Below are positions 15,792 to 48,408 of a stretch of DNA of 64,000 nucleotides, in pieces. How positions within the stretch are numbered: the first letter of the stretch is position 1; each line of letters starts with the position of its first letter. This DNA is from Clostridia bacterium (GTDB lineage Bacteria; Bacillota; Clostridia; Oscillospirales; CAG-272). Below the pieces are notes generated by a model. The model did not search any database, was not told where the DNA came from, and saw only the letters and a list, made by a program, of their open reading frames with translations. The stretch covers positions 186,001 to 250,000 of the forward strand of contig JAFQDK010000009.1 in assembly GCA_017399305.1 (NCBI GenBank), read 5' to 3'. A program made the position numbers and the translations under genes.

Positions 15792-18700
15792 ATGATTAAG
15801 AAACTGCGTTTTGTTATATCGCTGTTGCTTGTTGCGGCAGTTTTTGCCATTGGCGCATTTGCAGCAACAACCACCGCATATGTAAAAAAGGACGCAACAG
15901 GCACAGGACTCTCATCGTCCTCGCCTATCGGAAGTATTTCTGACGCGTTTGGGCTTTTAGGCGCTGACGGCGGTACAATATATATCATCGGTGAATATCC
16001 TATAACAAGCGGCACCACTATCGGTGAAAAGAAATTTGACTATACGCTTAAAGCGGGTACAGGCGGTTGTATCAGCCTTTCCGCAAACCTTGCACTCGCG
16101 AAAAATACAAATGACAACACTGTTACATTTGACCTTCCGTTCAAGATAGTCGGCAGTGATGCCCGCATTCTTTTCGGCGGCTTCAACAATGTTGTTTTTG
16201 GTAAGAACTTTTCTGTGAGTGCTTTAGACGGTGGATGTCTTAATTTCTACGGCGGTATGCGTAGCGGCACTGTTGAAGCTATAACCGAGCTTCCCTACAG
16301 CATTACTGTAAATGCGGGTACATTCAACGTGTTTGCGGGCGGCAACTTCCGCGACTCTATCTCCGCATATGTAGGCTCTGTTGCGGCCCCTGTCAGCATC
16401 ACCATAAACGGTGGTACATTCGGCAAGAGCGGAACATATCAGACATCCTCAAATAATAAGGATTATGATACGTTCAGCGTTTCTGGTATGTCTATCCTTG
16501 CGGATAAAGCTACTCTTACTATCAAGGGCGGTACATTCTATCATCCGATTTATATTCAGGGCAGGCTTGGTACCGTTGCTGGCGGCGCATCCGCAAAGAG
16601 CAATAAGGTAAGAAAGAACAAGAAGTATTATGTTATCGACGGCGATATTACTGTAAATATAAGCGGCGGCACATTCAAAGGCGGAGCTGTCAGTGCATAC
16701 TACACTCAGGCTGGCTATACCACCGTTATGAGAGGTAACTACACCGTTAAGGTTACAGGCGGTACGTTTGCGAGCGGAACCGTGTTTGATGCAACTCAGG
16801 TAAAGGGCTATGAGGGCAGTACAAAAAAGGCTACTATCACTTATCCTACATCAAAAAGCATCACTCCAAAACGTTTTGACGTTGTAAACGGTACTTCAAA
16901 AACATATACCGATCCTATCCGCGTTGTGTTTATCGGTGACTCTATCACCGAAGGATATGCGGTTACTGATGCGGGCGTTGACCGTATGACTGAGTCATAC
17001 CCTGCAAAATTCTTAAAATATGCAGAAAGCGCGGGCAAGGAGGTTATAATCAGTAACTTCGGTGTTGCCGCCTCAGGACTTCACCCTGCAACAAAGAGAT
17101 TCTATCACAATATGCTCGCATGGCCCATGGCAAGCGAAGCCGCGCCCGATTATGTGTTTGTTGCAATCGGTATCAACGATGCATTGACTATCGGCGGTAC
17201 AAACGGCGCATTTACTACTTTTAAGACCAACTATACAAACCTTTTAAAAACAATGGGCAACCTGCCCGACACCGACAAGGTGTTTGTGACAAATGCAATT
17301 TACTGCAATATCTCTGATGCTACTCAAATGCAACGTGCGGCGGCAGCGCTTCGCCCGACACAGCAGATACTGGCGGAAGACCTTGCCGAGACGGACTCCA
17401 AAAAATATGTATTTGTAGACTTTTACGGACTTACGCTTTCAAAGGGACTTGACGACTCGCTTTTCAAAGCCGACAACGGCACTGTATATGAGCGGTTGCA
17501 CCCTGCAACGGCAGGTCTTGACTTTATGGGCAAAACTCTGTACAATGCGGCATTTGGCGGAGTGACAAAGCCCTCTACTGCAAGAAAAACTACAGTTTAT
17601 GTGTCAGACAGCGGTTCATCACGCGGCGCAGGTACATCGTCAGCACCGATAAGCGACCTTTCGTATGCTTACAGTCTGCTTGACCCGAACAAGGCCTGCA
17701 CAATATACATCAGCGGAACGCTTTCCGTCGGCGGCAACCTTCACACGCCTGTTTCGACACAAACCGTTACATTTGCGGGTGCTGGCTCAGGTGCGGTCTT
17801 AAATATACACGGCAACACACTCAAGGTTGGCTCAAATATTAAGTTTACAAACCTTACACTAAAGGCATCGGGCAATGTACTCAATATTCACGGCTGTTAC
17901 AAGAACGTTGAGATTACAAGCACTGTCAAAACAAGCGGCGTTTGCAGCTTCTATGCCGGTTTCCCTGTATTTTCCGATGTCAGCTCAAGTTCTAATACAA
18001 TTCATGACAGCGTTTCCTCTGCATCCTCAAGCAGAAACTGCACCGTCAAGATAAACGGCGGTACATACCGCAACTTTGCGCTCGGCAACGGACGTTATGC
18101 GGCAGATGCTCCTATCGGCTCCTACAGCGGCACGATGAATGCTACTATTGGCAGCGGAGTTGTTATCGGCGATAGCTCATCCATATGTGTGGGTATAGTC
18201 GGACGCAACTATATCAAGGGCACTATCAACGTAACTGTTAACGGCTGGGGTAGCGGAGATATTCTTGAATACGCAGCAATGGGTTCTGTTTCATCCTCTG
18301 TTGGATTTGATAAAGCAAACAACACAGGCTGTGTTTATATCAAGGCGGCAGATAGCCTCAAATCAAAGATTAAATATCAGGAAGTAACTCCTTCTATCAG
18401 CTATGACGGCGAAGCAGTTACTCTCTCGTGGCTTAAAAAGGGCGCTGCTACAAGATACCGCATCTTCCGCAGAAAAGCGGGCGAAACCGCTTGGGACGGT
18501 GTTTCACGCTATACTACAGCAACCTCGTATAAAGATACCACTATGGCTGCCAACATAAAATACGAATATGCAGTTCAGGCATGGATACCTATAGACGACG
18601 GCTATGATTACAGCGAAAGTTACCTTGTCTCAATAACAACAAAGCTTCTCCCAACTCCCTCGCTTACTGCCAAAAACACCACAACGGGTATAAAGATTAC

Positions 18701-20948
18701 AATTTCTGCAGTGACAGGCGCCGAGGGATATAAGATTTATCGCTCGACAGACAATAAGACCTTTACGCAGATTGCAAAAGTAACAGCAACCTCATACGAG
18801 GATACAACTGCTACTACAAACAAAACATATTATTATCGCGTGCGTGCTTATACTAATGCAGACGGAACAAGATACAGTGCAAATTCCGAAAGTTTTGCCA
18901 CTATCCGTCTGGCTGCAGTTAATCCCACTGTTTACTACAGCGGTATTGACGGAGGAGTTCGTCTTAGCTGGAGTGCGGTGACTAATGCTACAAGATACCG
19001 CATTTTCAGAAGAGTTGCGGGAGAGAGTTCATGGGACAGCGTTACACGCTATGCTACGGCTACAGAATATATTGATACCACCGCAGAGCTTGGTGTTACA
19101 TATGACTATGCAGTTCAGTCCTGGGTTCCACTCGGTGACAAATTCATATACAGCTCAGGCGTAACCGTAACACTGACACCCACTGAGGTTAGTGTTCCTA
19201 CTATTAAGGTTTCCAACTCTATAGACGGTGTTAAGATTACCGCATCCGGTGTCACAGGCGCAGAGGGGTATATATTCTATCGCTCAATCGACGGCAAAAC
19301 ACTGACGCAAATTAAAAAGTCAACCTCTGCTACTTATGTAGATACAGCCGCAAAGGCTGATACCGCATACTATTACTATGCGAGTGCATATATCGGCGCA
19401 AGCCGAAGCAATACCTCTGAGGCGGTGCAGACGATAAGACTTGCGCCTGTAGAAAGCACTGTTTTCTACAGTGGTATTGAGGGAGGCGTGCACCTTAGCT
19501 GGAGTGCTGTAAAGAATGCGGCAAGATACCGCATATTCAGAAGAGTATCCGGTGAGAGCGCATGGGACGGTGCTTCACGTTATTCACTAACCACTGAATA
19601 TGTTGACACCACCGCAGAAATAGGCGTTACATATGAATATGCCGTTCAGTCTTGGGTATTACTCAATGACAAATATGTATACAGCTCCGGCACTACAGAA
19701 ACAATAACTCCCGCTACGGTTGCGATACCCACTGTCACAGTGAAAAATACGGTGGATGGACTCAGCATGACAGCATCGGGAGTTGCGGATGCAGACGGCT
19801 ATATCTTCTACCGTTCAACCGACGGCAAAACGCTGACCAAACTCAGCAAGACAACCTCTGCTACATATGTGGACAAGACTGCAAAGGCTGATACTGCATA
19901 CTATTACTATGCTTGTGCATACATCGGCTCAAATTGCAGTGGATATTCTGACGCAGTTCAGATTATAAGACTTGTTCCCGTAGAGTTTAATGCTTACTAC
20001 AGCGAAAGCGAGAATAGCGTTCATCTTGAATGGAATGCTGTGAAGAATGCGGACAAATACCGCATATTCAGAAGAGTTTCAGGCGAGAGTGCGTGGGACG
20101 GTGTAAATCGTTTCTCCGAAACAACCGAGTATATTGATAAAACGGTTACTTTAGGCGTTACATATGAATATTCTGTACAGTCATGGGTTATTCTCGGTGA
20201 CAAATATGTATACGGCTCGATGACCACTGATATTATAACGCCAACCGTGCATGGCGTTCCATCGCTTAGCGCTAAGAAGACTTCTTCGGGTGTAGTGCTT
20301 ACTTCAACTGCAGTTACAGATGCAGACGGTTACGTATTCTACCGTTCAACCGACGGTACAAGCTTTACAGAGCTTGCATCAACTACAGTTAACACCTATA
20401 CCGATACCACTATAGCTAATAAGGCAGTTTACTACTACAAGGTATGCGCTTATTTTGCAGACGCAGATGCGGCAGGCTACAGTGATTTTTCAGAGATCGC
20501 TACGGTTTACAACTATTCATATGCCGAGGTACATGAAGGAACCAGCTATGATAAAGTAGCCGCAAGGGTAGACGATATAAACTTTGCCTTCTATGAAATG
20601 CAGTATGAATGCGGCAAAAACGCAAGTCTAAATGAAATACCCGATGGCGCGTATGTATATTGTGTATATGGGGACTTTATCCTCGAGGTTGACGAAAGTA
20701 GTATCGGCTCAACCGAGATAACGCTTCCGTATGAAAACGCTGATGCAATAATTTTCGCAAGCGCACCTATCATCACCTACGGCGATGCTGATGCAGACGG
20801 CGAAATTACTTTGCTTGATGTTATAAAAGTTTTGAAGTATACGGTTGATGCTCCCACTGAAATAGATATCGCTGCAGCTAACATTAGCGGCGATATACAG
20901 ATTTCGACACTTGACCTGATTATGATACTGCAGAAAAAGCTTTCTTAA
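15792..20948 (+). CDS. Exported modular SGNH esterase with beta-helix modules, eight FN3 domains and dockerin
   Basis: 1718 residues from the ATG at 15792 (GGGGAAGGG upstream); an earlier ATG at 15777 has no site. Order: signal peptide (1-24); Gly-rich beta-helix-like module with INGGTF-type repeats (25-350); SGNH hydrolase (about 375-590) with FIGDSITEGY (S384), GIND (N462) and ERLHP (H570); a second beta-helix module (600-860); eight FN3 domains (865-1585) as four alternating pairs; dockerin (1664-1717, GDADADGEITLLDV). It probably deacylates a plant polysaccharide outside the cell, docked on a cohesin protein. In the usual D-x-x-H motif the Asp is replaced by Glu. Three other genes here share the beta-helix module. 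Confidence 0.85.
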   Translation: MIKKLRFVISLLLVAAVFAIGAFAATTTAYVKKDATGTGLSSSSPIGSISDAFGLLGADGGTIYIIGEYPITSGTTIGEKKFDYTLKAGTGGCISLSANLALAKNTNDNTVTFDLPFKIVGSDARILFGGFNNVVFGKNFSVSALDGGCLNFYGGMRSGTVEAITELPYSITVNAGTFNVFAGGNFRDSISAYVGSVAAPVSITINGGTFGKSGTYQTSSNNKDYDTFSVSGMSILADKATLTIKGGTFYHPIYIQGRLGTVAGGASAKSNKVRKNKKYYVIDGDITVNISGGTFKGGAVSAYYTQAGYTTVMRGNYTVKVTGGTFASGTVFDATQVKGYEGSTKKATITYPTSKSITPKRFDVVNGTSKTYTDPIRVVFIGDSITEGYAVTDAGVDRMTESYPAKFLKYAESAGKEVIISNFGVAASGLHPATKRFYHNMLAWPMASEAAPDYVFVAIGINDALTIGGTNGAFTTFKTNYTNLLKTMGNLPDTDKVFVTNAIYCNISDATQMQRAAAALRPTQQILAEDLAETDSKKYVFVDFYGLTLSKGLDDSLFKADNGTVYERLHPATAGLDFMGKTLYNAAFGGVTKPSTARKTTVYVSDSGSSRGAGTSSAPISDLSYAYSLLDPNKACTIYISGTLSVGGNLHTPVSTQTVTFAGAGSGAVLNIHGNTLKVGSNIKFTNLTLKASGNVLNIHGCYKNVEITSTVKTSGVCSFYAGFPVFSDVSSSSNTIHDSVSSASSSRNCTVKINGGTYRNFALGNGRYAADAPIGSYSGTMNATIGSGVVIGDSSSICVGIVGRNYIKGTINVTVNGWGSGDILEYAAMGSVSSSVGFDKANNTGCVYIKAADSLKSKIKYQEVTPSISYDGEAVTLSWLKKGAATRYRIFRRKAGETAWDGVSRYTTATSYKDTTMAANIKYEYAVQAWIPIDDGYDYSESYLVSITTKLLPTPSLTAKNTTTGIKITISAVTGAEGYKIYRSTDNKTFTQIAKVTATSYEDTTATTNKTYYYRVRAYTNADGTRYSANSESFATIRLAAVNPTVYYSGIDGGVRLSWSAVTNATRYRIFRRVAGESSWDSVTRYATATEYIDTTAELGVTYDYAVQSWVPLGDKFIYSSGVTVTLTPTEVSVPTIKVSNSIDGVKITASGVTGAEGYIFYRSIDGKTLTQIKKSTSATYVDTAAKADTAYYYYASAYIGASRSNTSEAVQTIRLAPVESTVFYSGIEGGVHLSWSAVKNAARYRIFRRVSGESAWDGASRYSLTTEYVDTTAEIGVTYEYAVQSWVLLNDKYVYSSGTTETITPATVAIPTVTVKNTVDGLSMTASGVADADGYIFYRSTDGKTLTKLSKTTSATYVDKTAKADTAYYYYACAYIGSNCSGYSDAVQIIRLVPVEFNAYYSESENSVHLEWNAVKNADKYRIFRRVSGESAWDGVNRFSETTEYIDKTVTLGVTYEYSVQSWVILGDKYVYGSMTTDIITPTVHGVPSLSAKKTSSGVVLTSTAVTDADGYVFYRSTDGTSFTELASTTVNTYTDTTIANKAVYYYKVCAYFADADAAGYSDFSEIATVYNYSYAEVHEGTSYDKVAARVDDINFAFYEMQYECGKNASLNEIPDGAYVYCVYGDFILEVDESSIGSTEITLPYENADAIIFASAPIITYGDADADGEITLLDVIKVLKYTVDAPTEIDIAAANISGDIQISTLDLIMILQKKLS
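18386..20500 (+). repeat. Tandem two-domain FN3 repeat inside the SGNH gene
   Basis: Four copies of a two-FN3 unit. The same marker stretch (AGATACCGCAT..TTC.G.AGA) starts at 18453, 18993, 19524 and 20055, giving periods of 540, 531 and 531 bases. Each unit has an A domain (RYRIFRR...SAWDG...VQSW) and a B domain (GYIFYRSTDGKT). Later copies are most alike, as expected of expansion by unequal recombination. Confidence 0.85.
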
Positions 20949-20975: not shown

Positions 20976-21009
20976 AAGAATACTCTTTGTGAAAGGTATG
21001 TATACTAAA

Positions 21010-23571
21010 ATGAAGAAAATAGCATCACTGTTTGCTCTCGTTTTCACTTTTGCCGTTTTAACACTTGCCATAGGTGCGGATACCTTTAACGGCACAATGG
21101 TACGTTCAAACAACGCGGATCCGAATCTCTTTTTCCATGACGGATATTATTATCTCACACAGACAGGCACCTCGCGTATCGCTGTGTTTGAAACAGAGCA
21201 CGTCGATGAACTTGGTACACTTAAGCTGTCATCGAATATTTCATATTCGGCTTATCTTAACGGAACTGTGTATGACCCCACCGTTACCGAGCTTTTCGGC
21301 GAGGGGGCTTCGATAAGCGGTACGTGGTCGCCCGAAATTCACTATTTCTCCGAGGAGGACTTCCCGGGCAATTCGGGCTGGTACATGTTCCTCGGCCTCA
21401 GAAAGAACACCGGCGACGCCTCGGTAGTGCGTATGGTAGTTCTCAAATCTACCACAGATTCACCTAAAGGTCCTTACGGTCATCCTACAAAGGGCACAAA
21501 GAACTATTCACAGCCCTTGCTTGACAAAAACGGCGACGTATGGGACGAGTGGGGCTGCGGTCAGACCGTACTCAATATCCCCGAAGGTCCATACAAGGGC
21601 ATTTATACCATGTGGGTAGCCGAAGAGGGACGCGGCTCGACATACGGCGGCAAATACGGCGACTTCTATCAGAAGATAATGATTGCAAAGCTTTCCACAC
21701 CGTGGCAGCTTGCGAGCGACCCCGGCATAGTTACAACTCCCACTCAATCGTGGGAATATGCGGGTGCTTCCACCACTCATCCGAGAGTTGTTGAGGGCGC
21801 AACACCTGTATATGGCAAGAATGGCGAGATATTCCTCACCTATTCGGGCAGCGGCTACTGGTCGGACTACGGACTTGGTCAGCTCACATGGAACGGCGGC
21901 GATCCTTTGCTTACCTCATCATGGGTAAAGCTTCCCGTTGCAAACGGCAACCCCATTTTCTCAGCAACCACTGCTAAAAATCTCCGCGGCGCGGGACATG
22001 CGTCATTCCTCACCGACACAAGCGGTAACGGATTCTTCTGCTATCATGCGTATGCATATGATGCAGCGACAGATACAAAGGCTTCCGCACGCGATGCATA
22101 CATCGAGCCTTACTACATCGACTACACAAAGTGGAACGGTGTTTCCTACGGTGTAATCAAGCTTGGTATGAACGGTAACGGCGTCCCCGCAGACACTGCC
22201 TCCACCGTGACCTTTGCAACCGACGGCACATATCTTACCGCGCCGAGTATTACTGCCGAGGGCGGCGAGAGCATTAAACTTACAATCAGTGAAAGCGGTG
22301 CAAATGGCTACATTATTTACAGATCCACAGACGGAAAAACGTTTAATTATCTTACCACAGTTGATGCAACAACTTATACCGACAGTGACGTTGAGATTGA
22401 TAGCACCTACTACTACCGCGCATACGCTTACCGCGAGGAAGAGATAAGCGATGTCAGCGAAACGGTGAGCGCGGCGGCACACATCACACTTAAAAAGCCG
22501 GGGCTTATTGTTTCAAGCGGCAATTCTTTGCTTGCTATTGCCTGGTCTGACTGTGAGGGTATGAAGGTCTACCGCAGCACTGACGGTGAAAGCTACGTCG
22601 AGGTGTTTGATTATGATACGCCGATGACGGCAGGCGAAAGATATTTTTATAAGGATGACAACGTTTCTTTCGGCAATACCTATTACTATTACGTAGTAAA
22701 CTACAGTGGAGACGTGCAAAGTCCGCCCTCGGCTGTTGCCAAGTACACCGTTACAACTCTTGATCCTCCCTCGGTTTTACAGACAAGCGTAAGCTGTACT
22801 GGCATAGAAATACACCTTGACGGTGAGCATACAGAATGTGAGGTATACCGCAGTACTGACGGTGAGAGCTATGAGCTTTACGGCAAATTTGAGGGTAACT
22901 CGTTTGAAGACACCGATTTTGCTGTAAATCAGAGCTACTATTACAAGTTCAAGGGAATAAACGGAGAATACGTCAGCGAATTTTCAGAGGCGGCAGGTCC
23001 CCTTACTCCCGAGCATAAGCCGCTTGTTGAATACAGCGGACTTGACGCTACCTGTACCGAAAAAGGCTATACAGCCTACGTGCAGTGTGACACCTGCGAT
23101 GAAGTGATTTCTGGAAAGGAAGAAATTCCGGCTACAGGTCATGTTGATACCGAGACCGTAACCGTTGACGCAAGTTGCACTGAGCCGGGCTCTGTTACTG
23201 TTACATGCAAGTGCGGCGCGATCGTTTCTGTCGAGGAAATCGCTGCTACCGGTCACTCATATGAGGAAACCGAAGCCGAGGTTCCCGCAACTACCACATC
23301 CGTAGGCAAGACCGCAGTTTATACCTGTGCTTCTTGCGGTGACTCTTACGGCGGCGAGGAGATTCCGATGCTTGAGGACACCGACGAATTCACCATGACA
23401 GGCGACGCAGACAAGGACGGAAAGATAACTCTTATTGACGTTCTCCGCACGCTTAAAGCGGTGGTTGGCGAAGAGGTTAAAATAAGCCGTGCAAATGCCG
23501 ATATTGATGGTGACGGCGAGCTTGAAGCAGCCGACGTGCTTGCAATTATCAAAGTATTCCTTGACGCTTAA
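21010..23571 (+). CDS. Exported GH43-family glycosidase with dockerin
   Basis: 853 residues from the ATG at 21010, whose signal peptide reads MKKIASLFALVFTFAVLTLA; an ATG at 20998 and GTG at 20989 are alternatives. The five-bladed propeller domain (26-410) has the general base D37 in ADPNLFFHDGYYYLT and the probable acid E262 in VVEGATPVYGKNGEIFLTY, with WSPEIHYF and GAGHASFL. GH43 enzymes are arabinanases, arabinofuranosidases and xylosidases. FN3-like repeats (415-680) with YRSTDG motifs follow, then a Cys-rich segment with TCTEKGYT and ATGH repeats (685-790), and a dockerin (798-853, two DxDxDG loops). Probably co-transcribed with the SGNH gene. Confidence 0.87.
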   Translation: MKKIASLFALVFTFAVLTLAIGADTFNGTMVRSNNADPNLFFHDGYYYLTQTGTSRIAVFETEHVDELGTLKLSSNISYSAYLNGTVYDPTVTELFGEGASISGTWSPEIHYFSEEDFPGNSGWYMFLGLRKNTGDASVVRMVVLKSTTDSPKGPYGHPTKGTKNYSQPLLDKNGDVWDEWGCGQTVLNIPEGPYKGIYTMWVAEEGRGSTYGGKYGDFYQKIMIAKLSTPWQLASDPGIVTTPTQSWEYAGASTTHPRVVEGATPVYGKNGEIFLTYSGSGYWSDYGLGQLTWNGGDPLLTSSWVKLPVANGNPIFSATTAKNLRGAGHASFLTDTSGNGFFCYHAYAYDAATDTKASARDAYIEPYYIDYTKWNGVSYGVIKLGMNGNGVPADTASTVTFATDGTYLTAPSITAEGGESIKLTISESGANGYIIYRSTDGKTFNYLTTVDATTYTDSDVEIDSTYYYRAYAYREEEISDVSETVSAAAHITLKKPGLIVSSGNSLLAIAWSDCEGMKVYRSTDGESYVEVFDYDTPMTAGERYFYKDDNVSFGNTYYYYVVNYSGDVQSPPSAVAKYTVTTLDPPSVLQTSVSCTGIEIHLDGEHTECEVYRSTDGESYELYGKFEGNSFEDTDFAVNQSYYYKFKGINGEYVSEFSEAAGPLTPEHKPLVEYSGLDATCTEKGYTAYVQCDTCDEVISGKEEIPATGHVDTETVTVDASCTEPGSVTVTCKCGAIVSVEEIAATGHSYEETEAEVPATTTSVGKTAVYTCASCGDSYGGEEIPMLEDTDEFTMTGDADKDGKITLIDVLRTLKAVVGEEVKISRANADIDGDGELEAADVLAIIKVFLDA

Positions 23572-26691: not shown

Positions 26692-29600
26692 TTAGTTAAA
26701 CACGAGTTTTAGTATAAGAAGAATATCTACTACAGTTATGCAGTTGTCACTGTTCATGTCAACATGTACATAGTCAAATCCGTCTTGCTTGGTTCCGACA
26801 GTAAATTTCATGGTTTTCAGCGTATCAATAAGATTGATTACACCGTCGAAGTTTGCATCGCCAAGAGTGAGATTTGAGAGATATACAGTTTCGCCATACA
26901 TAGGCTCATGGTTGTTTGAAGAAACAGTACCAATGCTACTGCTGCCAGTAATCTTATCTGCAAGTGGCATGGTGTTCTTTTCGAGAGTGAACACGGTACT
27001 TGTCGCTTTAGGCTTGTCTATTGTCGGGAAGTCATTTACAAATGTGATTTCCTGAACATACAGACGACGCATTGTATATGCCGAATAATGATATTCTTTT
27101 GCATGGTATACGCCGAGATACTTAGAGCCACTCGGTGTTGTTGTTACAACCAAGGCGCCGGGGGAGAGTACGTTCTCATCATAGTTTGCAAACTGAAGAG
27201 GCTCGGAGTATTTTGTCCAATAGGAAGCATTTGTGAGCTGAGATGCTGATGTACCTGTGAACTTCATGATACCTGTGCAGTACTCATCATTACGAGTATG
27301 ACCTGCCGCAAAGAGTACATAGAGTGTGCCGCTTGGTGAAATAACAGGGAACGGTCCTTCCATGATTCCGCCTTCATATGAATATTGAGGTGAGGAAATG
27401 AGATTCATCGAACCTTTTAAGGTGAGAGGATCTGTCATTTCGCCGATAAACATACGCTGGATGTGTTTTGTAGCGGTTTTGTCTTCAGCGCGCCAGAAGC
27501 CGCCGCATATCATGAAACGCTTGCCGTCCATCTCAATGAATCTGGGTGAGAGATATGAATAAACGTCTGTATCGAGATTGTTCATAAGACCGTGGTAGTT
27601 ATATTCGCCCACCGGATCCGATGTTTTTGCCACCCAGATAACAGGCATGCGGCGTGCAGAAACATCATATTCAAGTCCGATATCGCAGGTGGTATAAAGA
27701 TACCATGTGCCACCAACGTTATAGAGCTGAGGCGCCCAAAGGCTTACGATTTCTGCACCGTCGGTAGAGAGTGCCTGCGCCCATACGAGTGTAGGCTCAA
27801 CATTGCCGAGGTCGTATATGTTTGCTGCCTTTGCAATCCATACTGCCGGCTTTGAGAGGTAGTCTTTGGCAAAAGAATAGTAGTACCAGCCGTCATGATA
27901 AATAACAGAGGGGTCTGCATATCCTGCAATGGGGTTTGTAAAGTCAGCACTGCCGCTTACAGCCGCGCTGAGGTTTACATCAGGGGATACATTAAGGCTT
28001 ACACCGTCTGCTTTTATCTGGCTTACGCGGTCAAAATCGCCGCTCACAAGATTTAATGTAAAGTTCTGTCCGACAGTGGTATTTTCAACTCTTGTGCGCC
28101 CGATATCGCCGTGATATTCGCCGCCGTCAAGTGTTATATTTACATTGCCGCTTACTGCTTCACCATCATAGGAGCCGTAGATCGAGCAGTCAAAAATGCC
28201 GCCTGTAACGGTGAGATCCATGTTACCGTTTACAACGCTTCTGCCTGCAAGGTAGACACCTTCGGTGAATCTGCCGCCTGTAATGGTGAGGTTTATGTCA
28301 CCGCCGACAGTATATGTTCTGGTGTCTGTGTCGTAGTAGTAATGGCTACCACCTGTAACAGTTCCCCATGTACCACTCTTTACGGTGAGGTTTGGTGAAT
28401 AGCTAAGGCGGAGAGTTTTTGCGTGAGAGCCGCCGACAAGGGAAGGATAAAGCTCGATTCTCTTACCGGGATAAAGCTTACATTCAACACCTTCGCCGAT
28501 AGTAAGCTTGCGTCCCTCTGCACTTATAAATGTGTATCTTTCAAATGAAAGGAAATCTACATTTTCTATCACTGTTTCGCCGGATGCTCGCATACCCTCG
28601 GAGAGTTCAATGCGTGCATCTGCAAAGTCGCGGTAGTCGATGCCCATATACTTGGATGTGAGCACCGTTTTTGCGTCTATGGTTGCAAGATTTGTGGTAG
28701 AGGTGAGGTAGATAGGTCCGCAGATAACTACGGTCTTTCCATTTGCTGCAGTGATGGCTTCGTTAAGGTCGGTCAGGGGAGTTAATGGCGTTGAACCGTC
28801 ACCTGATATCTGATCTTTTGCAAAACCTGTTTCGCCGCTTACAAATATTGCATCGGTGGGTGCGTTGTATTTAACGCAGCCGGTGTAGTCAATTGTTGCA
28901 TCTTCGGGAACTATTGCGCCAAATGAATATACGCATTTGTCTGTGGGGTATTTTGAAACACCTGCTTTGCCGGCAAATGTACCGCCGAGCACGTGGATCG
29001 CGCCTTCATTTCCGGAATACTCAAAAGCGTAGATATTGCCATTAAGTGTACCCGATGTAACAAGGACATAGCCGTTTGCATTTGACTCATTAGCAACGGC
29101 AACGATGTCGCCGCTTACTGTTGCGCCGTCAATGTGAAGCTTTACATCCTTAGCGCGTGCACCTTTTATGTATGCGAAAAGTCCTGAGCGAACAGTGGCG
29201 TCTGTAAAGTTCTTAAGACCTATTCCGTTGCCGGTAACCCCTTCGTCAATAAGGATAGTACCGTCAGCACAGCTCACAACGCCTGTACCGTAACCGTCAA
29301 GAGCTATATTACGGATAACTGTGTTTGAGCTCACATAAAGAACATCGCCAATAGTAATAGCCGCATCCTCGGTAGCACCCTCAATGATAACCTTGCCGTT
29401 ACCCGAAATGCTGAGTGCACTTGAAGGAACAGTGCCGCTTACACGGATAAGCGCATCACCTGTAACGGTTGCGCTTCCACCATTTGAAAGGTTTATCAGC
29501 GGATCAAAACCTGAGGTTTTAAGCCCGAGAGAACTGTCTATGTCTGCAATAGCAAGACCGTTTGTACCTTGTGCGTAAATGGTGCCGAAGTTTGAAAAAG

Positions 29601-33600: not shown

Positions 33601-35281
33601 CAACGGCAACGATACCGTTCATACCCTTGGATGTGGTGGTATTTGTAATTCTACCGCCATTGATGATGATAGAAACGTTACCGATAGTACCTACTGCCTG
33701 TGCTTCACCTGTACGGATAGAGCCGCCACGTACATAGTGCCAGTCGCCGGAGTCGATCTGGATAGTGTAGTCAAAGAATTTTGTATTGTGAATCGTTGTG
33801 CCGCTACGTGCACAGTCTGTACCACCCCAGATTGCCATGGGGTTTTGCGAATAGGTGGTGGTGATTTCCTTGCCGAGGTGCAGGCTGTTACCCTGACAGT
33901 AGAACTCTGCGCCGTTTGTGTTTGAAATATCAATTTTTTCGATGATAGTATCGCCGCCGAGGAAAACGTCAACGTTAAAGGAGAGGGAAGCGCCTGTTTC
34001 ACGGTAATCAACGCCCTCATAAACGCTGGTGATTGTTATAGCGCCGTCATGCTTGGGGAATGCTGCCTCTGTTGCTGTGTCGATAATGGTGTCGCCGCAA
34101 ACAACTATGGTGCCGCCCTTGTCGCCGAGCAGCTTGAATGCATGATTGATTGATTGAACAGGATTGGAGAAAGACTTACCGTTGTTATCGTTTGAGCCGT
34201 TGTCGCTGAGATATACAACGGTCATGCTGGTGTCGGCTTCTTTATAATCGGTAATAGTGTCAAAGTTTTCGATGCAGACATAGCTTTCAAGCCAATCTGT
34301 TGGGATTTTTGCATCTGATGCGATATCAAGTACAGTGTAGCCGTAGTTAGTAGCGGTGCTGTAGAGTGCGCCGCCGTTGAGACCGATGAACGCGTTGTCA
34401 TCTCTCCAACCGGGGGTACCTGCGGTGAAATACTTTGAAACATCCATATTCTTTGTGATATGGACTGTAACATTTACATCGTATGCAACGTCTTCACTAC
34501 CGCAGCCTGTCATAAAGTTTGTTATTTTACCGCCATCAAGCGTAATGTCGACATTACCGCCGGTAACGGTCTTTGAGCCCCAGCGATATGCGCCGAAGAG
34601 CTTGTTTACCGTGCCGTTTTCACCGATAGTGATGTATGCAGTGCCGGTGTAGTTTGCAGCTGCGTATCTTGCAACGTTACGTCCGAGACCTGTGAGCTCG
34701 GCAATAGTACCGTCAAGTACAGTTACGTAAGCATCTTTTGTGTAGTCGTCATCGGGAACGGAAATAACCGAGTTTGTGTGGTCAAGACCGCCGATAACGT
34801 GCACCTCTACTTTTTCCATCTTTGTGCCCTTGCCGAATGTGAGGTGGAAGAAACGACCGGACATAACAAATGTCTTATTGTTGCCGTTGTAGATAGTGAT
34901 GTTTTCAAATGTAGTGTTTGCTGTGCAGACAAAGCGTGAACCGTCTGCGCAGATAAGACGTGCATTATAATCTGTGTCGCCGTCCTTACCTGTAATAACG
35001 ATTGTGCCGTCTGCCGCAGGGGAAATAAATCCGGGCAGAGATCCGTCGTAGTTAACGGAATTCTTTAATGTGTAGTCGCCGGTGACTACGATCGTACCGC
35101 CGTATGGCAGGGCGGTAATTGCATCAGCAATATCGCCGATGGGGGCTGAAGGCGAAGAACCGTTACCGGTACCGCCGTCAGCAAGGTACACAACATCATT
35201 TGCCGCGCTGATGCCAAGTACAGCCATGCCGCAAAGCAGTACTGTGATGAGAAGTGCACCAAAAAGTTTAAAGTTTTTCAT
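30608..35281 (-). CDS. Exported beta-helix / GH43-like protein with three SLH domains
   Basis: 1557 residues from the ATG at 35281 (GGAGAT upstream); the frame's earlier GTG-like start at 35299 lacks a site. Signal peptide 1-32. Three beta-helix modules, each opening VVYLADGGTGNG (33), VVYLSDNG (about 353) or VIYLMDGGEGDGSTP (about 712). GH43-like propeller (about 1020-1350) with D1026 in GFADPSIVYHEGYYYY and E1219 in GIMEGPYPFYTPSGELY. C-terminus (about 1375-1557) has three S-layer homology repeats (FTDVWQNAWFYGYVKTAYEY; ITRGEMAIVFANIL; NFRPNDEIIRSEACVIFTRI) that would bind the pyruvylated cell-wall polymer. So this paralogue is wall-anchored while its relatives carry dockerins. Start 11 bases after the binding-protein gene. 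Confidence 0.85.
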   Translation of the reverse strand: MKNFKLFGALLITVLLCGMAVLGISAANDVVYLADGGTGNGSSPSAPIGDIADAITALPYGGTIVVTGDYTLKNSVNYDGSLPGFISPAADGTIVITGKDGDTDYNARLICADGSRFVCTANTTFENITIYNGNNKTFVMSGRFFHLTFGKGTKMEKVEVHVIGGLDHTNSVISVPDDDYTKDAYVTVLDGTIAELTGLGRNVARYAAANYTGTAYITIGENGTVNKLFGAYRWGSKTVTGGNVDITLDGGKITNFMTGCGSEDVAYDVNVTVHITKNMDVSKYFTAGTPGWRDDNAFIGLNGGALYSTATNYGYTVLDIASDAKIPTDWLESYVCIENFDTITDYKEADTSMTVVYLSDNGSNDNNGKSFSNPVQSINHAFKLLGDKGGTIVVCGDTIIDTATEAAFPKHDGAITITSVYEGVDYRETGASLSFNVDVFLGGDTIIEKIDISNTNGAEFYCQGNSLHLGKEITTTYSQNPMAIWGGTDCARSGTTIHNTKFFDYTIQIDSGDWHYVRGGSIRTGEAQAVGTIGNVSIIINGGRITNTTTSKGMNGIVAVAGFDALEGYAKIEINGGEINCSVMGLGRPGTNSTATNSAYAHGDVTITITGGKFRKGITVGAVHDTIAGELTGDFTLAVSGGDFSGAASFNAESVLGTSTLLLAGGIAPKAVDFDSTVNATNTSDFETKLATLLDGESKKVTFPAVTAKSDVIYLMDGGEGDGSTPDKAIGDIVEATEKLPNGGTIVVCGKVSIDLGKTLRQTNGKITLTSTYGGVDYATLNNAHIELTKHIAFRSETLIENIKFVSKGNNCYLSAEGNEFTIGEGVECEIFKGNRCEDYPSIIAGSFSLSTSLRKDLHITVKSGTWGSLSGAQFSTVANSGATRRVEGNIVIDVYGGKFTDDCYIVGINNLKGNATLNAYGGTFACSIFGIAGQNLTVDGNITLNGYKAAFEGDIRAAQNDLPTLNGKFAFNVYESDITRASVIIGAENLPGENTSEINVAANIDLEKELTGEISFQNPIAGFADPSIVYHEGYYYYTYANGYNGGQGLWMAKAVNLCDIGKVEPILIWSQKLTGQGKEMTALWAPQLYFMDGRWYIYAAAQTSKDAASGADLRYPYVWIGQEDDPTGPYEYFGCMENIDTEVHSYLSPRVIKHGGKWYMFMSGFYRSEDTNPHTQRMRVCELESPTKMASKQIVISSPCYYYEYDPADTAMLKGIMEGPYPFYTPSGELYMFFAAGHTRTDYYSTGIMRFNGTENDSLLDATKWEKFPEPLQYANLNNFVYSPGALVVTTSPDGSRYYGVYHAKEYHLSAYSMRRMHMQEITFDENGFPHMEDPQPVSTVFTMEMNSLPLAKRISNFTTAGKLDAAGGKFEKTRVYENNFTDVWQNAWFYGYVKTAYEYALANGTSATAFSPNGKFTVAQALTAAVNIHKAYNGTTVRAAAQGEKWYTPYIEYCTNAGIITASQFDNFDRNITRGEMAIVFANILPSSEYAAVRSGSNPDVTSDMACYSAVQKLYNAGIVGGDAGTGNFRPNDEIIRSEACVIFTRIAAKEYRAK

Positions 35282-35292
35282 ATTTATCTCCT

Positions 35293-36759
35293 TTACCATT
35301 GTGCAGCTGCTTTAGCATAAGCTTCGCCAATTTCGGTGAGTGATGCTTCTGCCGCGCTCTTTTTTGAATCAAAAGTTGATGCAAAATTCTTTGAACCTTC
35401 TCTGAAGAGGAAGATAAGTTCTTTATTTATATCGCCGGGCTGAACATAAAGGCCAAGGTCATATGCACGCGTTGCGGCCATGAGTTCGAGTGTTTCCATC
35501 GAATCCTCATCGCGGAAATACTGACCGGTGAGAGTCTTTTCGTAGTATGCAGGAGTGGTATATTCTTTGCCGTAGTAGCTGAGCGCTTCAAGCACGTTTC
35601 CTGTCATTTCGGGATTGTCGATGCTTGCCGGTGCACATATAAATGTCATATGATACGGTGAAGCCGCTGTGTGATAGTCTTCTTGAGCTGCATCATACTT
35701 GGGATAAGGAAGGATGCCGTAGTCTGTTTCCATGTCGCGGTAATTGTCAAGAGACTGGAGTCTACCGAGGAAGAAAAGTGCGCGGTTTGTGGAGAACATT
35801 GTTATTGCTTCCTGCGCGGTGTAGCGCTGATAGTTGATTGCATCACCGCCAAAGCAGATGTCGGTGTAGCTTGAAAGCACGTCTACAATGCGTTCACTTC
35901 CGGTCAAGGTGAGATTCATATTGCCGCTTTTGTCAACGGTTACAACCTTTTCGCCACTGCCTCCGAATATTGCATATACCGAGTCGTCCCATGTGATAAT
36001 GCCGAACTTGTCGCTCATGTCCATTGAGCCGTCGGAGTTGAGGTCTTCTGTGGCAAGTTTTGCATAGGATGCAAGTGCTTCATGTGTCCATGCACCGTCA
36101 GCAACGATCTCATAGAAGTCGTCTTCGATGTTGAGGTCTTTTTTGACCTGCTTGTTGAAGCCTATAACATGCTGTTGCATATCATCCCAGAAAGAGATAT
36201 CACCGGTGGTGTAGAAGATGCAACCGCTTATAGCAAGGTCGCTGTTTGCTTTTTGGTCCCACCAAGAGTTATCAAGGTTGATTCCAGGCAGATTTGAAAG
36301 TTCATAGAGCGAATCGGAGGTTGCAAGCGGAACCGCATCATATGCGCCGATTACAGCCGCATCATAGTCTGCAGTACCTGACATGACGGATGTGTAAATC
36401 TTGGTTAGTCCTGTGTTGCTGCCGCCCATATCTTCTACAAGCTCAATGTCTATGCCGTAGAGCTCCTCAACGGCGGCGTTCTTTTTGTATACCGCCTCGT
36501 CAAGTGTCGAGCGCTCTGATGCATCAATGTTTGAAAAATCCTTGAAATCTACATTAGAGTTCGGGTCTTTTCCTGATACAAGCAATACAAATTCATCATT
36601 GTATTTTGCATTTGCCGGGGTGAATTCTTCACTTATTTCAACGGTTGTGACAGCTTCGGTTGCAGTGGTATTGGCTGGTGTTTTTTCACCGCATGCTGAA
36701 AGTGCCGATATACTCATTGTCGCCGCAAGCAACAACGATGCGAATTTTGTTTTATTCAT
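35293..36759 (-). CDS. ABC transporter solute-binding lipoprotein, without adjacent permeases
   Basis: 488 residues. Lipoprotein signal peptide with lipobox LSAC (C23), then a Thr-rich linker and a family-1-type extracellular sugar-binding fold: YDAAVIGAYDAVPLATSD, ISGCIFYTTGDISFWDD, DKFGIITWDDSVYAIFGG, APASIDNPEMTGNVLEALSY. The translation start at 36759 has GGAGAG, lying inside the 3' end of the AraC gene, so the two are coupled. No membrane permease or ATPase gene is in the window; it must share permeases encoded elsewhere or act as a sensor ligand-binder. Expected to capture oligosaccharides released by the surface GH43 enzymes. Confidence 0.87.
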   Translation of the reverse strand: MNKTKFASLLLAATMSISALSACGEKTPANTTATEAVTTVEISEEFTPANAKYNDEFVLLVSGKDPNSNVDFKDFSNIDASERSTLDEAVYKKNAAVEELYGIDIELVEDMGGSNTGLTKIYTSVMSGTADYDAAVIGAYDAVPLATSDSLYELSNLPGINLDNSWWDQKANSDLAISGCIFYTTGDISFWDDMQQHVIGFNKQVKKDLNIEDDFYEIVADGAWTHEALASYAKLATEDLNSDGSMDMSDKFGIITWDDSVYAIFGGSGEKVVTVDKSGNMNLTLTGSERIVDVLSSYTDICFGGDAINYQRYTAQEAITMFSTNRALFFLGRLQSLDNYRDMETDYGILPYPKYDAAQEDYHTAASPYHMTFICAPASIDNPEMTGNVLEALSYYGKEYTTPAYYEKTLTGQYFRDEDSMETLELMAATRAYDLGLYVQPGDINKELIFLFREGSKNFASTFDSKKSAAEASLTEIGEAYAKAAAQW

Positions 36760-36760
36760 A

Positions 36761-40785
<4,025 letters not shown>

Positions 40786-40796: not shown

Positions 40797-40826
40797 TTGA
40801 ATTGTATCAGCAGAATAGAGTATAAT
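40797..40826 (+). promoter_or_regulatory. Promoter of the plus-strand AraC gene
   Basis: TTGAAT (40797-40802), 18-base spacer, TATAAT (40821-40826). Divergent from the lacZ promoter, with about 85 bases between the -35 boxes. Confidence 0.6.
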
Positions 40827-40880
40827 ACAAGAAACGGACTTTTATATATTAGACAAATTTTTGGATATTCGGAGGGAGAC

Positions 40881-44067: not shown

Positions 44068-44082
44068 ATTTCTAACAAATAA

Positions 44083-44472: not shown

Positions 44473-44478
44473 ACCAAA

Positions 44479-44507: not shown

Positions 44508-44565
44508 GAGTTTTTTTCATTTTTCTACAAAAAAGCTTTTTTATATAAAACAATGAAGAAAAACG

Positions 44566-44593: not shown

Positions 44594-44622
44594 TTTTATG
44601 AAGAAACTATCAGAGGTGCTTT

Positions 44623-47600
44623 ATGATTTTTTTGAAAAAGTTGGTGATGTCATTGCTTATGTCTGCTATTCTTTGCGGTAGTGCTTTTGCGGCTGAAAAT
44701 ATTGTTTATGTAAATGCAGATACAGGAAGCGATGAAAATACAGGCGGTAAGGATGCTCCTTTCGCTACTCTTGAAAAGGCGGTTTCTTTCTTTGACGGAA
44801 CAAATGGCGGCGGTATAGTTGTATGCTCGTCGCTTGATTTTGCCGATGCGGCAGAGATTGCGTGCGATTGCAGCGGGAATATAACTATAACCTCAAATTC
44901 CGGTGTGCAGCTTAATTTTGCAGGTAAATTCTATATCAATGCGCCTGTTGCATTTGAAAATATAAAGCTTAATTTTACTGCCAATGTTCCGATGCTTTTC
45001 TGCGAGGGTAATAACGTTACATTCGGTGAAGGCGTTACAACTTCATATGTAAGCACCGCTCCCATAATTCACGGCGGAACATATGGCGGTAAGAGCGGAA
45101 TGACAAAGGCGAAGATGCACTTTACCGATTATGCATTAAGCGTAAAAAGCGGCACATGGTACTATGTCAAGGGTGGCTCCTACCGCGACAGTGAGGGACA
45201 ACCGGTAGGCACGCTTGAAAATGTTACCGTTAATATTCTGGGCGGAGCTTTTTTGTCAAAGAAAACAGGAGTCTCCGACAATGCGGTGATTTCTCCTATC
45301 GGCTTTGACGCGCTCAGAGGAGATGCAACGCTCAATATTTCCGGAGGCACGTTCAGCGGTTGCTCAATAGTCGGTGTTGCACGTCCCGGATACAATTCCA
45401 CCACTTCAAACAACCAGTATATAAAGGGTAATATCTGCATAAATGTCACAGGTGGTACGTTCAGCGGCGGCGACATCCGCGCGGTTCAGGATCCTGTTGC
45501 AAGTAAGATTGACGGAGACTTTTATGTGACAATAAGCGGCGGAAGCTTTACAAGCTTTTCCGGTGTTGACGGCGAGTGCGTAAACGGACTCGCTATTGCA
45601 GATGTGAAAAGCGGCATTGCAACAAAGAATGTTGATACTCTTGTAACTGTTTCATCGAGTGGCTCTGCAACAGTTACAAACGGTGGTGTTATTCGCATAA
45701 AAGGAACGGTCAACAGTTCAAAACTTAAGGTTTCGGGTGATAAAAAGGTAATTATTGAGGGTGTGGATTCCTCGGCTTCAATAGTGATAGATAAGGTATG
45801 GTATGTCGGCTCAGATACCGAGATACGCAATGTTGCCCTAAACAGTACAACTGCAGGTGTTATAAGTTGCTCAGACGGCAAAATCCTCATAGGTGATGGC
45901 GTTAACGGCAGCGGAGTTGCAATTAAAAACTTTACCGATGGAGTTGTTTGCTCAGGTAATTTTGAATACCTTAAAGGCGCAAGAGAAAAGAGTGTGAAGC
46001 TACATATCGACGGCGCTACGGTAAACGGCGATGTTGTTGCAGTTGCAAATGAGTGTAAGGAAAACGGATATGTGCTTTTTACAAGCGGCAGTGTCGGAGG
46101 TAATATTTACGCATTTGAGTATTCGGGTAACGAAGGTGCAGTGCATGTTTTCGCTGACGGATTTACAGGTAAGGTAGGCGCAGCAAAATATCCTACCGAA
46201 AAATGCGTAGAGGTGTTCGGCGCAGTTGCACCGAGTGGCGCAAGAATTGATTATTCCGGTTGTGTAAAATACGTTGCACCGGCTGATGCAGTGTTTGTAA
46301 GTTATGGTGCACACGGTGACGGCACGTCACCTTTGTCTCCGCTCGGCAGTCTTTCTGAGGCGGTAGAGAATGCAAACGGCAAAACCGTAGTTATATGCAG
46401 TCCGTATTATATCAAATCAACTGCGGTGCTTCCCGCGTCAAACAAAAAAACCGTTATTACGTCAAAGTACATGGGACTTGACTATCGCGATTTTTACGAT
46501 GCGTGCATTGAGCTTTCGCAGGGGCTTCGCATTTCGAGTGAGACAGTATTTGAAAATGTTGATTTCCTTGCGTTTGAGAAGTATACCTTCGTCAGTGCAG
46601 AGGGGCATCCGCTCACGATTGGCGAGGGCGTTGACTGCAGAATTTTTGAGGGCAAGCGAGTTGAGGATTATCCCTCGCTTGTGGGTGCAAGCCATGAAAA
46701 AACCGAGAAGATATCCTCTGTTGACCTCACGGTGCAAAGCGGCAGATGGGGTATTCTTTCTGGCGGAAGCTACCACACCTCCGATACCGATACAAAAAAT
46801 TACACGGTTACGGGCGATATAAATGTAAACATTTTCGGCGGTACGGTCGAGGGCGGTGTGTACCTTTCGGGGCGTGCCAATGTCGGCGGCAATGCTGCAC
46901 TCAATGTTTACGGCGGAACATTCCGCTGCCCGATCTATGCGGCGCACGATACGGATACAACCGTTAGCGGCGATGTGCTTATCAACCTGCAGGGCGGCAT
47001 GTTCTGCGGCGATATTTCGCGCTACGGCGCGGGCAAGAGCTTTACTCTCAACATGGCAGACGGCGACTTTGGCCGCGTGTGCACTGTTGATGTCGGCGGC
47101 GGTGTGCTTAATATCGGTGAGGGTGTTGACCTTGATGCTGAAATTTCTGGTGTAGGACAGTACCAAAATCCCGTGGCAGGCTTTGCAGACCCGTCAGTTG
47201 TTTATCATGACGGCTGGTATTACTATTCTTATGCAAAAACATATCTCGGCAAGGATGCACTCTGGATGGCTAAGGCAGCTAATATCTATGACCTCGGCAA
47301 TGTCCGTCCCAAACTCATCTGGGCAGAGGCACTCAGCGACAGCGAAACCAGAGTAAAATCAATCTGGGCGCCCCAGCTTTACTTTCTTGAGGGTAATTGG
47401 TATCTCTACGCGACTTGCGACGTGGGACTGCCCACCGAGATTGTAAACGGCAGAAGAATGCCGACAATATGGAAGGCGAAAACTGATGACCCGTTCGGTG
47501 ACTACGACTTCCTCGGAGTTATGAAAAATGTAGATATGGATGTTTACAGTTACCTCTCTCCGAGGTTTGTTGAGCATAGCGGAAAGCTGTATATGGTCAA

Positions 47601-48408
47601 CGGCGGATTTTTCAGAAAAGCGGATACCGAGGACAAGCATTTGCAGGGCACAATGGTGTCCGAGCTTTCCGACCCTGTTACAATGAAAGGGGCGGCGGTG
47701 CTGATTTCCTCTGCCGATACGGATTATGAAAAGGGAATTATGGAAGGACCGTTCCCGTTTCACTCGCCAAACGGCACTTTATATATAATTTTCGCGGCGG
47801 GACACACAAGAACTGACGAGTATTGCACGGGCATTATGCGCTTTACAGGCGGGGAAAATGACAGTGTTCAAGATGCAAAAAACTGGGTGAAATACGAGGA
47901 GCCTATCCACAAGGTAAGCTATGAAAACGGAGTGTATTCTCCCGGTGCAATGGTTGTAACCACCACTCCTTGCGGCAGTGAATATTTAGCTGTTTATCAT
48001 GCAAAAGAATATCACTATTCCGCATATACCATGCGTAGGCTGTATGTACAAAAACTATCGTTTGTTGACGATTTTCCTGTAGTAGATGAGCCACAGCCTA
48101 CTGATACGGTGTTTGAACTTGAGCTTAATACAATGCCTATTTCCAAGCGTATTGCAGGCGCATCAGATATCGGAAGCGCTAATGTGTTGGAGGTGACACC
48201 TCCTGCAGGCGAAACAAGATATGTTAATTACTATCTTCTCGGAGACGTTAACTTTGATGAAAAAATAGACTTTCGCGACGTGCTTCGCGCAATGAAACTC
48301 TTTGCAAACGGCAAGGCGACCGATAGTGAAATAGCGCGTGCAGACTTCAACGGCAACGGTGAAATCGATGCGTCTGATGTGCTTAAGTTGCTTCTTAAAA
48401 TATTGTAA
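44623..48408 (+). CDS. Exported beta-helix / GH43-like protein with dockerin (second copy)
   Basis: 1261 residues. Signal peptide MIFLKKLVMSLLMSAILCGS to about residue 23. Two beta-helix modules open IVYVNADTGSDENTG (26) and AVFVSYGAHGDGTSP (about 555). GH43-like propeller with D856 in GFADPSVVYHDGWYYY, IWAPQLYF, SYLSPRFVE and E1041 in GIMEGPFPFHSPNGTLY. Dockerin (about 1206-1261): GDVNFDEKIDFRDV and DFNGNGEIDASDV. It is collinear with the 26692-30546 product, sharing blocks such as GFDALRGDATLNISGG and RPGYNST, so they are a duplicated pair on opposite strands. Own promoter and terminator. Confidence 0.83.
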   Translation: MIFLKKLVMSLLMSAILCGSAFAAENIVYVNADTGSDENTGGKDAPFATLEKAVSFFDGTNGGGIVVCSSLDFADAAEIACDCSGNITITSNSGVQLNFAGKFYINAPVAFENIKLNFTANVPMLFCEGNNVTFGEGVTTSYVSTAPIIHGGTYGGKSGMTKAKMHFTDYALSVKSGTWYYVKGGSYRDSEGQPVGTLENVTVNILGGAFLSKKTGVSDNAVISPIGFDALRGDATLNISGGTFSGCSIVGVARPGYNSTTSNNQYIKGNICINVTGGTFSGGDIRAVQDPVASKIDGDFYVTISGGSFTSFSGVDGECVNGLAIADVKSGIATKNVDTLVTVSSSGSATVTNGGVIRIKGTVNSSKLKVSGDKKVIIEGVDSSASIVIDKVWYVGSDTEIRNVALNSTTAGVISCSDGKILIGDGVNGSGVAIKNFTDGVVCSGNFEYLKGAREKSVKLHIDGATVNGDVVAVANECKENGYVLFTSGSVGGNIYAFEYSGNEGAVHVFADGFTGKVGAAKYPTEKCVEVFGAVAPSGARIDYSGCVKYVAPADAVFVSYGAHGDGTSPLSPLGSLSEAVENANGKTVVICSPYYIKSTAVLPASNKKTVITSKYMGLDYRDFYDACIELSQGLRISSETVFENVDFLAFEKYTFVSAEGHPLTIGEGVDCRIFEGKRVEDYPSLVGASHEKTEKISSVDLTVQSGRWGILSGGSYHTSDTDTKNYTVTGDINVNIFGGTVEGGVYLSGRANVGGNAALNVYGGTFRCPIYAAHDTDTTVSGDVLINLQGGMFCGDISRYGAGKSFTLNMADGDFGRVCTVDVGGGVLNIGEGVDLDAEISGVGQYQNPVAGFADPSVVYHDGWYYYSYAKTYLGKDALWMAKAANIYDLGNVRPKLIWAEALSDSETRVKSIWAPQLYFLEGNWYLYATCDVGLPTEIVNGRRMPTIWKAKTDDPFGDYDFLGVMKNVDMDVYSYLSPRFVEHSGKLYMVNGGFFRKADTEDKHLQGTMVSELSDPVTMKGAAVLISSADTDYEKGIMEGPFPFHSPNGTLYIIFAAGHTRTDEYCTGIMRFTGGENDSVQDAKNWVKYEEPIHKVSYENGVYSPGAMVVTTTPCGSEYLAVYHAKEYHYSAYTMRRLYVQKLSFVDDFPVVDEPQPTDTVFELELNTMPISKRIAGASDIGSANVLEVTPPAGETRYVNYYLLGDVNFDEKIDFRDVLRAMKLFANGKATDSEIARADFNGNGEIDASDVLKLLLKIL

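Follow-up and report, generated by a model that had tools for sequence, protein, structure and literature searches.

A recurrent module of exported clostridial proteins, most likely a beta-solenoid, combined with different enzymes and surface anchors

Among beta-helix proteins that bind plant polysaccharides, CBM89 is a 14-turn, xylan-binding beta-helix at the N-terminus of CapGH10 from the capybara gut (PDB 7JVI; PMC8810776), and the clostridial protein Cthe_2159 is reported to bind cellulose and polygalacturonic acid (PMC6712302). GH43 proteins of the AtAbf43C/SaAraf43A kind represent GH43_26 (PMC12493170); as for surface anchors, a single cohesin is combined with SLH in ScaF and SdbA and with PF07833 in OlpC and ScaG (PMC3413522). 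Here we describe a stretch of 64,000 nucleotides (the window) from a Clostridia bacterium of the CAG-272 lineage (GCA_017399305.1, contig JAFQDK010000009.1, positions 186,001 to 250,000 of the forward strand), in which one module recurs nine times in four exported proteins, joined to GH43 or SGNH domains and to dockerin or SLH. This stretch lies on contig 48 of an assembly of 2.13 Mb (2,134 kb) that is 64% complete.

The features of the four proteins are given below; the bit scores of module copies are those of leave-one-out profiles, each built from the other eight copies.

15777..20948, plus strand: P0001, SGNH carrier of 1723 amino acids (aa), in the order module, SGNH, module, FN3-like repeats (by reading), dockerin
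15864..16892, plus strand: module copy M1a (110.3 bits)
16911..17564, plus strand: SGNH/GDSL domain of P0001 (PF13472, 3.4e-14), with GDSI at aa 387, GIND at aa 465 and HP at aa 575
17586..18380, plus strand: module copy M1b (31.7 bits)
20778..20927, plus strand: dockerin-like end of P0001 (PF00404, E 0.0013, 19.4 bits in the window Pfam scan; 25.5 bits in the genome dockerin search)
26692..30546, minus strand: P0002, GH43 carrier of 1284 aa
28867..30474, minus strand: module copy M2a, with an extension of ~200 aa
27943..28863, minus strand: module copy M2b, adjoining GH43
27031..27942, minus strand: GH43 of P0002, with base Asp at aa 878, acid Glu at aa 1063 and Ser at aa 1000 at the modulator site
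26710..26865, minus strand: dockerin-like end of P0002 (19.4 bits, under the Pfam cut-off; no match at E ≤ 0.01 in the window Pfam scan)
30608..35299, minus strand: P0003, GH43-SLH carrier of 1563 aa
34244..35203, minus strand: module copy M3a (67.8 bits)
33164..34228, minus strand: module copy M3b
32234..33157, minus strand: module copy M3c, adjoining GH43
31289..32233, minus strand: GH43 of P0003 (PF04616, 3.2e-32), with base Asp at aa 1032, acid Glu at aa 1225 and Ser at aa 1155 at the modulator site
30653..31141, minus strand: three SLH repeats of P0003 (PF00395), the middle one passing the cut-off only with its neighbours
44623..48408, plus strand: P0004, GH43-dockerin carrier of 1261 aa
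44692..46272, plus strand: module copy M4a, with an extension of ~200 aa
46276..47160, plus strand: module copy M4b, adjoining GH43
47161..48072, plus strand: GH43 of P0004 (PF04616, 3.4e-29), with base Asp at aa 856, acid Glu at aa 1041 and Ser at aa 979 at the modulator site
48238..48390, plus strand: dockerin of P0004 (PF00404, 1.6e-08, 35.0 bits in the window Pfam scan; 41.8 bits in the genome dockerin search)

The nine segments, distributed 2, 2, 3 and 2 over the reading frames of P0001 to P0004 as the preliminary description had it, form one family. All nine were recovered by the profile of the other eight (31.7–255.6 bits), compared to a top score of 8.5 bits among shuffled sequences (188–200 scored shuffles per copy). 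For the weakest member, M1b, the best shuffle reached 4.7 bits; pairwise phmmer comparison joins only some pairs of copies, and M1b pairs with none. A chance or low-complexity likeness among GGT repeats is ruled out by the leave-one-out profiles together with the shuffles. The opening YV...P...A and the density of GG turns by which the module had been recognized were confirmed as well: GG[TSKRE][FWY] occurs 132 times in the 128 module copies of the genome (4.47 per 1000 aa) and is about eight-fold sparser outside the modules of the same proteins (22 occurrences, 0.54 per 1000 aa). The N-termini of the four carriers read, by eye, as signal peptides. Pfam likewise confirmed GH43 in three of the proteins (PF04616 at 93.0, 112.5 and 102.5 bits vs. 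a cut-off of 32.2), SLH in one (64.6 bits vs. 20.8) and SGNH in one (PF13472, with the GDS, GxND and HP motifs all present). Of the three dockerins proposed previously, that of P0004 is above the Pfam cut-off and that of P0002 is below it, whereas that of P0001 is below it in the window Pfam scan and above it in the genome dockerin search; the FN3 repeats of P0001 can be read from the sequence but have no Pfam match at E ≤ 0.01.

The module has no significant match in the databases searched. For the nine copies the best Pfam match was Fervidolysin_SD2 (E = 0.012), the nine-row profile had an antibody chain as its best PDB match (E = 0.055), and the module consensus matched no Pfam or NCBIfam family at E ≤ 1 (best PDB match, E = 0.39). 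None of the pectate-lyase-like Pfam families was above the cut-off for the nine copies (best, Pectate_lyase_5, E = 0.14 in one of the nine); among whole carriers, lone weak matches such as Glug (5.2e-5) and DUF1565 (0.002) appeared in one of 33. As far as titles and abstracts show, literature searches brought up no description of the module, the CBM89 paper being the nearest; the paper found for dockerin, beta-helix, GH43 and SLH together mentions a beta-helix once, in a table note on Cthe_2159. When a broader GG-turn motif than the one above was used, pairs of turns 24–27 residues apart numbered 157, compared to 66.9 ± 7.4 (maximum 88) in 300 random placements, as expected for a solenoid with coils of ~25 residues; the module is most likely a beta-solenoid, namely, a right-handed beta-helix. 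Thus viewed, it would resemble CBM89 as a high-molecular-weight beta-helix at the N-terminus of an enzyme acting on plant polysaccharides. Unlike CBM89, it is found as tandem copies, is spread over 64 proteins and combines with many partners as well as with surface anchors, and 7JVI is absent among its PDB matches at E ≤ 10; the module also differs from Cthe_2159/PF14262 in that PF14262 matches neither the nine copies (E ≤ 10) nor the consensus (E ≤ 1).

In the window's own genome, the nine-row profile gave 119 matches at E ≤ 1e-3. The stretches around the module matches contain 64 distinct open reading frames with 128 module copies, some of these frames ending at contig or stretch ends; stop to stop, they total 70,150 aa, corresponding to 9.9% (~210 kb) of the assembly. 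Two carriers from the collection stand out by their copy number: L105 (2776-11004) is a protein of 2743 aa with five module copies, SGNH and dockerin, and L113 (2927-8215) is a protein of at least 1763 aa with six module copies and SGNH. The preliminary description had proposed a survey of lineages and partner families with a profile of the nine copies. At E ≤ 1e-10, with up to 34 candidates scored per genome, this profile matches 6/6 genomes of the genus, 1/30 genomes of the family's other genera and 0/23 genomes from other families of the order. At the same threshold, with up to five candidates scored per genome, a wider draw of the family gave matches in 30/395 genomes and 11/71 genera, and 398 genomes across the phylum gave only the window's own matches. 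Relatives that carry the module include a goat-rumen metagenome-assembled genome (L023) and an Oscillospiraceae one (L022). The claim of one module with swapped catalytic and anchoring partners is supported and holds beyond the window, in 64 proteins genome-wide as well as in sister genera. As to how rare the combination is, two of the 48 loci from a query for module plus GH43 show the module, both search patterns lying within GH43.

Among the 64 carriers (scanned in two batches of 33 and 31, with 25 of 28 families listed for the latter), the most common partners at Pfam E ≤ 0.01 are GH43 (20), dockerin (17), GDSL (14), SLH (12), PF07833 (8) and Peptidase_M14 (6); GH31, VanY (one carrier), esterases, ADP-ribosylglycohydrolase and GH32 are found in one or two carriers each. 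Genome-wide matches raise the number of dockerin carriers to 20, and a local dockerin profile adds 11. In 16 of the 20 GH43 carriers, the module ends 1–33 residues before GH43, and 15 of these 16 have a recognized anchor, always after GH43, the remaining one being without an anchor. Given that the anchor lies beyond GH43, the module is outermost in these proteins instead of separating the enzyme from the cell. Hardly any linker lies between module and GH43, which suggests a rigid unit. In SGNH carriers, a module starts 10–14 residues after the SGNH domain in 14/14 and another ends 7–27 aa before it in 11/14. On account of its partners, its outermost position and the beta-helix precedents CBM89 and Cthe_2159, we infer that the module binds glycan. 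One peculiarity of the SGNH domain is shared by P0001 (aa 565-576; 17469-17504) and L074_2238, which have six extra residues ahead of the LHP motif, so that Glu, not Asp, stands three residues before the His; in P0001 the insertion lies between the usual Asp and the His.

Anchors recognized in the carriers are dockerin, SLH and the PF07833 stalk, a membrane tail taking this place in sister genera. In a tree of the GH43 domains of the 20 carriers, the label for dockerin changes 6 times, compared to a shuffled mean of 6.8, with at least 5 changes forced by well-supported branches (five of these labels come from the local profile only, and two are internal to the protein), and the SLH label changes 6 times, compared to 5.9, with at least 4 forced. 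Close GH43 pairs with different anchors are L009 (SLH) and L083_308 (dockerin, local profile only), with support of 100/99, and L070 (SLH) and L093 (dockerin), with support of 100/100. The anchors are scattered over the tree as if shuffled, that is, they appear to be exchanged between GH43 units. The SLH cassettes of P0003, L102 (10384-11940) and L112 (1831-3708) are 71–74% identical, far closer than the modules of these proteins, as if they had spread recently. In the SGNH-type dockerins at the C-termini of L071, L074, L090, L098, L099 and L101, the first repeat reads as Ca-binding-like and the second as degenerate.

For sister genera, 28 carriers were analyzed in 16 regions of 13 genomes picked for strong module matches, several of the carriers being cut by contig ends. 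A membrane segment with a basic tail ends 17 of these 28 proteins, compared to 1 of 64 in the window's genome, and none of the 28 matches the local dockerin, SLH or stalk profiles. In a tree that includes the sister genera (a quick tree with long-branch warnings), the GH43s of the window fall within a group of ten (98 SH-aLRT) that includes membrane-tailed proteins of another genus. Dockerins occur in 13 of 14 sister genomes (the 13 genomes of the regions plus G571), with 1–31 in each. The joining of dockerin and module is not quite a trait of a single genus, given that, in sister genome G480, a module (C44:15280-16002) and a dockerin (C44:16189-16368) are each found in an open frame of 860 aa, seemingly one and the same.

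The genome of the window has 66 dockerin matches at E ≤ 0.01, and each of the six genus genomes has 7–55 dockerins at E ≤ 1e-3 and 1–3 cohesins. Two relatives encode cohesin proteins, L115 and L116, whose sequences read as a signal followed by a single cohesin and SLH; their SLH parts share 75% and 70% identity with the SLH of P0003, and both genes sit beside a glnS-like gene (by eye). The sole cohesin protein of the window's genome, L021, has a stalk-like part and a dockerin-like N-terminus (by reading). Other single-cohesin proteins of the genus, L117, L118 and L121, have a different SLH type (by reading) with ~30–37% identity to the SLH of the window, over short pieces for L117 and L118. 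L115 and L116, with a single cohesin and SLH, and L021 and L120, with a PF07833-like form by reading, resemble the cellulosome surface anchors OlpA, which carries SLH, SdbA and OlpC/ScaG. Because the cohesin-SLH proteins share the P0003 type of SLH and resemble these single-cohesin anchors, dockerin and SLH are probably two routes to the same cell surface, with the cohesins as the putative counterparts of the dockerins. No multi-cohesin scaffoldin is seen among the 8 cohesin matches in the six genus genomes, which are 53–84% complete.

The GH43 domains of the window share with AtAbf43C and SaAraf43A the family PF04616, the nearest PDB matches, the base Asp and the acid Glu but differ in that the modulator Asp is replaced, the module adjoins the propeller and the Pfam scan shows no CBM42. 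The best PDB matches were 3k1u, 5m8e, 9nxj, 9nxg, 5m8b and 3akf. By its numbering (Asp168, Asp283 and Glu344 counted along the alignment), 9nxg appears to be AtAbf43C, and the Ser of YLSPR in P0003 is aligned opposite its Asp283; in AtAbf43C, an Ala substitution at Asp283 or at either of two other residues abolished activity (PMC12493170). Across 106 GH43 rows, the base Asp and the acid Glu are invariant (106/106, including all 34 module-linked rows), whereas the pKa-modulating Asp is kept in 71/72 unlinked rows vs. 5/34 module-linked rows. Fisher's exact test gives 8.8 × 10−20 for this difference, which is not a true probability because the rows are related. The unlinked set was obtained from a pattern search and from neighbours in the same loci; two L022 rows and one L023 row, in which modules are present, were counted as module-linked, and the modulator column of the GG group was taken from the MAFFT alignment alone, phmmer showing a gap there. 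The modulator is kept in five module-linked rows, in which the module comes after GH43 (L080 and L108) or ahead of it (L129_745 and two of L099); fusion and modulator loss thus coincide in most rows but not in all. The GH43 catalysis of the preliminary description is doubtful as worded, since in all three GH43s of the window Ser takes the place of the second catalytic Asp.

Within the YLSPR group of 13 rows (L101 and L125 with motif variants; numbering of the GH43 fragment of P0003), Asn128, Asp130 and His164 are present in 13/13 rows and Arg140 and Asp160 in 12/13, and these residues occur in at most 3% of the unlinked rows. Given that one residue is lost and the rest are conserved, a rebuilt active site fits better than decay; shared descent may explain part of the pattern, and a binding-only role is conceivable. 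A GH43_24 enzyme without the base Asp works with Gln, and GH43 can act without the full triad (PMC7939473). Literature searches brought up no GH43 branch described as lacking the modulator Asp.

The reading towards which we lean, with some reserve, is that outward-facing, glycan-binding solenoids of a lineage-specific module are rigidly joined to surface-tethered enzymes. Usually one to three module copies, and up to six, would sit outermost in a secreted protein and bind plant-type polysaccharide; joined almost without linker to the GH43 propeller, or flanking the SGNH esterase on both sides, they would thereby present the bound chain to the enzyme. The other end would be tethered to the cell directly, by SLH or a PF07833 stalk, or indirectly, by a dockerin caught by a single-cohesin wall protein, with a membrane tail in sister genera. 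Most module-linked GH43 units have an altered active site with the base Asp and the acid Glu kept and the modulator Asp gone. Several observations weigh against this reading. With respect to the fold, the turn band at 46–53 residues is not raised (134 vs. 122.0 ± 10.6), distance 51 alone being raised (36 vs. 15.1), the band at 8–9 is raised as well (77 vs. 36.6 ± 5.9), and sequence search yields no significant relation of the module to CBM89, PF14262 or any PDB chain. With respect to domain order, the module follows GH43 in L080 and L108 and lies ~300 residues ahead of it in two of L075; the dockerin or SLH match is not C-terminal in L075 (two), L079, L085 (two), L103 and L110; and 12 of the 64 carriers, some cut by contig ends, are without a recognized anchor. 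The module is also joined to peptidase domains (the six Peptidase_M14 carriers and the VanY one), an association that a plant-glycan role leaves unexplained and that may point to targets of another kind. Finally, no cohesin-SLH gene was found in the 64%-complete assembly of the window; with the adjacent glnS-like gene, found in only 2/6 genus genomes, likewise absent from it, the gap may be one of the assembly.

The replacement of the Asp283 equivalent by Ser, at a position where Ala abolished the activity of AtAbf43C (PMC12493170), and the absence of the modulator Asp from 29/34 module-linked vs. 1/72 unlinked GH43s are what would be seen if the GH43 units were pseudoenzymes and the carrier as a whole served as an adhesin or a fibre for glycan capture at the surface. 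We consider this unlikely, since a dead enzyme under relaxed selection should lose the base Asp and the acid Glu, both of which are invariant, and the conserved polar set of the YLSPR group resembles a rebuilt site, although shared descent could account for part of that set. The preliminary description had allowed for a spacing solenoid, i.e. a mere stalk that keeps enzymes off the cell, in agreement with the repetitive, solenoid-like sequence and with the carriers that have an anchor but neither GH43 nor SGNH. Where the order can be read, it disfavours this role, the module being N-terminal to the enzyme in 16/20 GH43 carriers with the anchor on the opposite side in the 15 that have one, and in P0001 the place expected for a spacer, between the second module and the dockerin, is occupied by the FN3-like repeats (by reading); we regard a spacer as improbable. 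Less probable still, to the point of being hard to credit, is a catalytic role of the module itself, as a beta-helix lyase, glycosidase or esterase. Enzymes of this size with a beta-helix are common, and the module has conserved polar positions such as the D-Y-R loop, but there is no significant match to a Pfam or NCBIfam enzyme family, and the D-Y-R columns are filled in only 62–70 of 113 module copies (among the nine copies of the window, D-Y-R is present in three, a partial form or DY alone in three, and a gap in three). An extension of the favoured reading, which we offer tentatively and with more doubt than conviction, is that this GH43 branch acts on a new substrate or arranges its catalytic residues differently, and that it is kept in register with the solenoid, which would lengthen its binding groove; the loss of the modulator and the new polar set (Asn-x-Asp, Arg, Asp and His in the group of the window) would have come largely in step with the fusion, and the module family would have grown to about a tenth of the genome as a surface array of single-docked giant enzymes.

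If the reading of tethered solenoid-enzyme units is true, an uncultured lineage devotes about a tenth of its coding DNA to a single module outside Pfam and NCBIfam, and rule-based annotation would label such proteins merely 'GH43' or 'hypothetical'. The swapping of SLH, dockerin, stalk and membrane tail on one enzyme unit would then be a natural experiment comparing cellulosome-type docking with direct anchoring. The missing catalytic Asp calls for caution before GH43 matches in this group are annotated as ordinary arabinofuranosidases, and it poses a direct biochemical question.

The carriers are accompanied in the window by the following genes.

20989..23571, plus strand: P0006, GH43 without module (Pfam; 45.6 bits, weaker) plus dockerin, immediately following the SGNH carrier
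23668-25344: BNR/Asp-box-like protein (weak match below the cut-off), situated between dockerin genes and read as without signal peptide
35293-36759: solute-binding-like protein (under the Pfam cut-off)
36761-37561: AraC-type regulator (by eye)
37552-40755: GH2-like protein (by eye)
40797-41663: AraC-type regulator (Pfam)

With the GH43-dockerin, solute-binding-like and GH2-like proteins and the two AraC-type regulators, this neighbourhood fits a plant polysaccharide utilization island.

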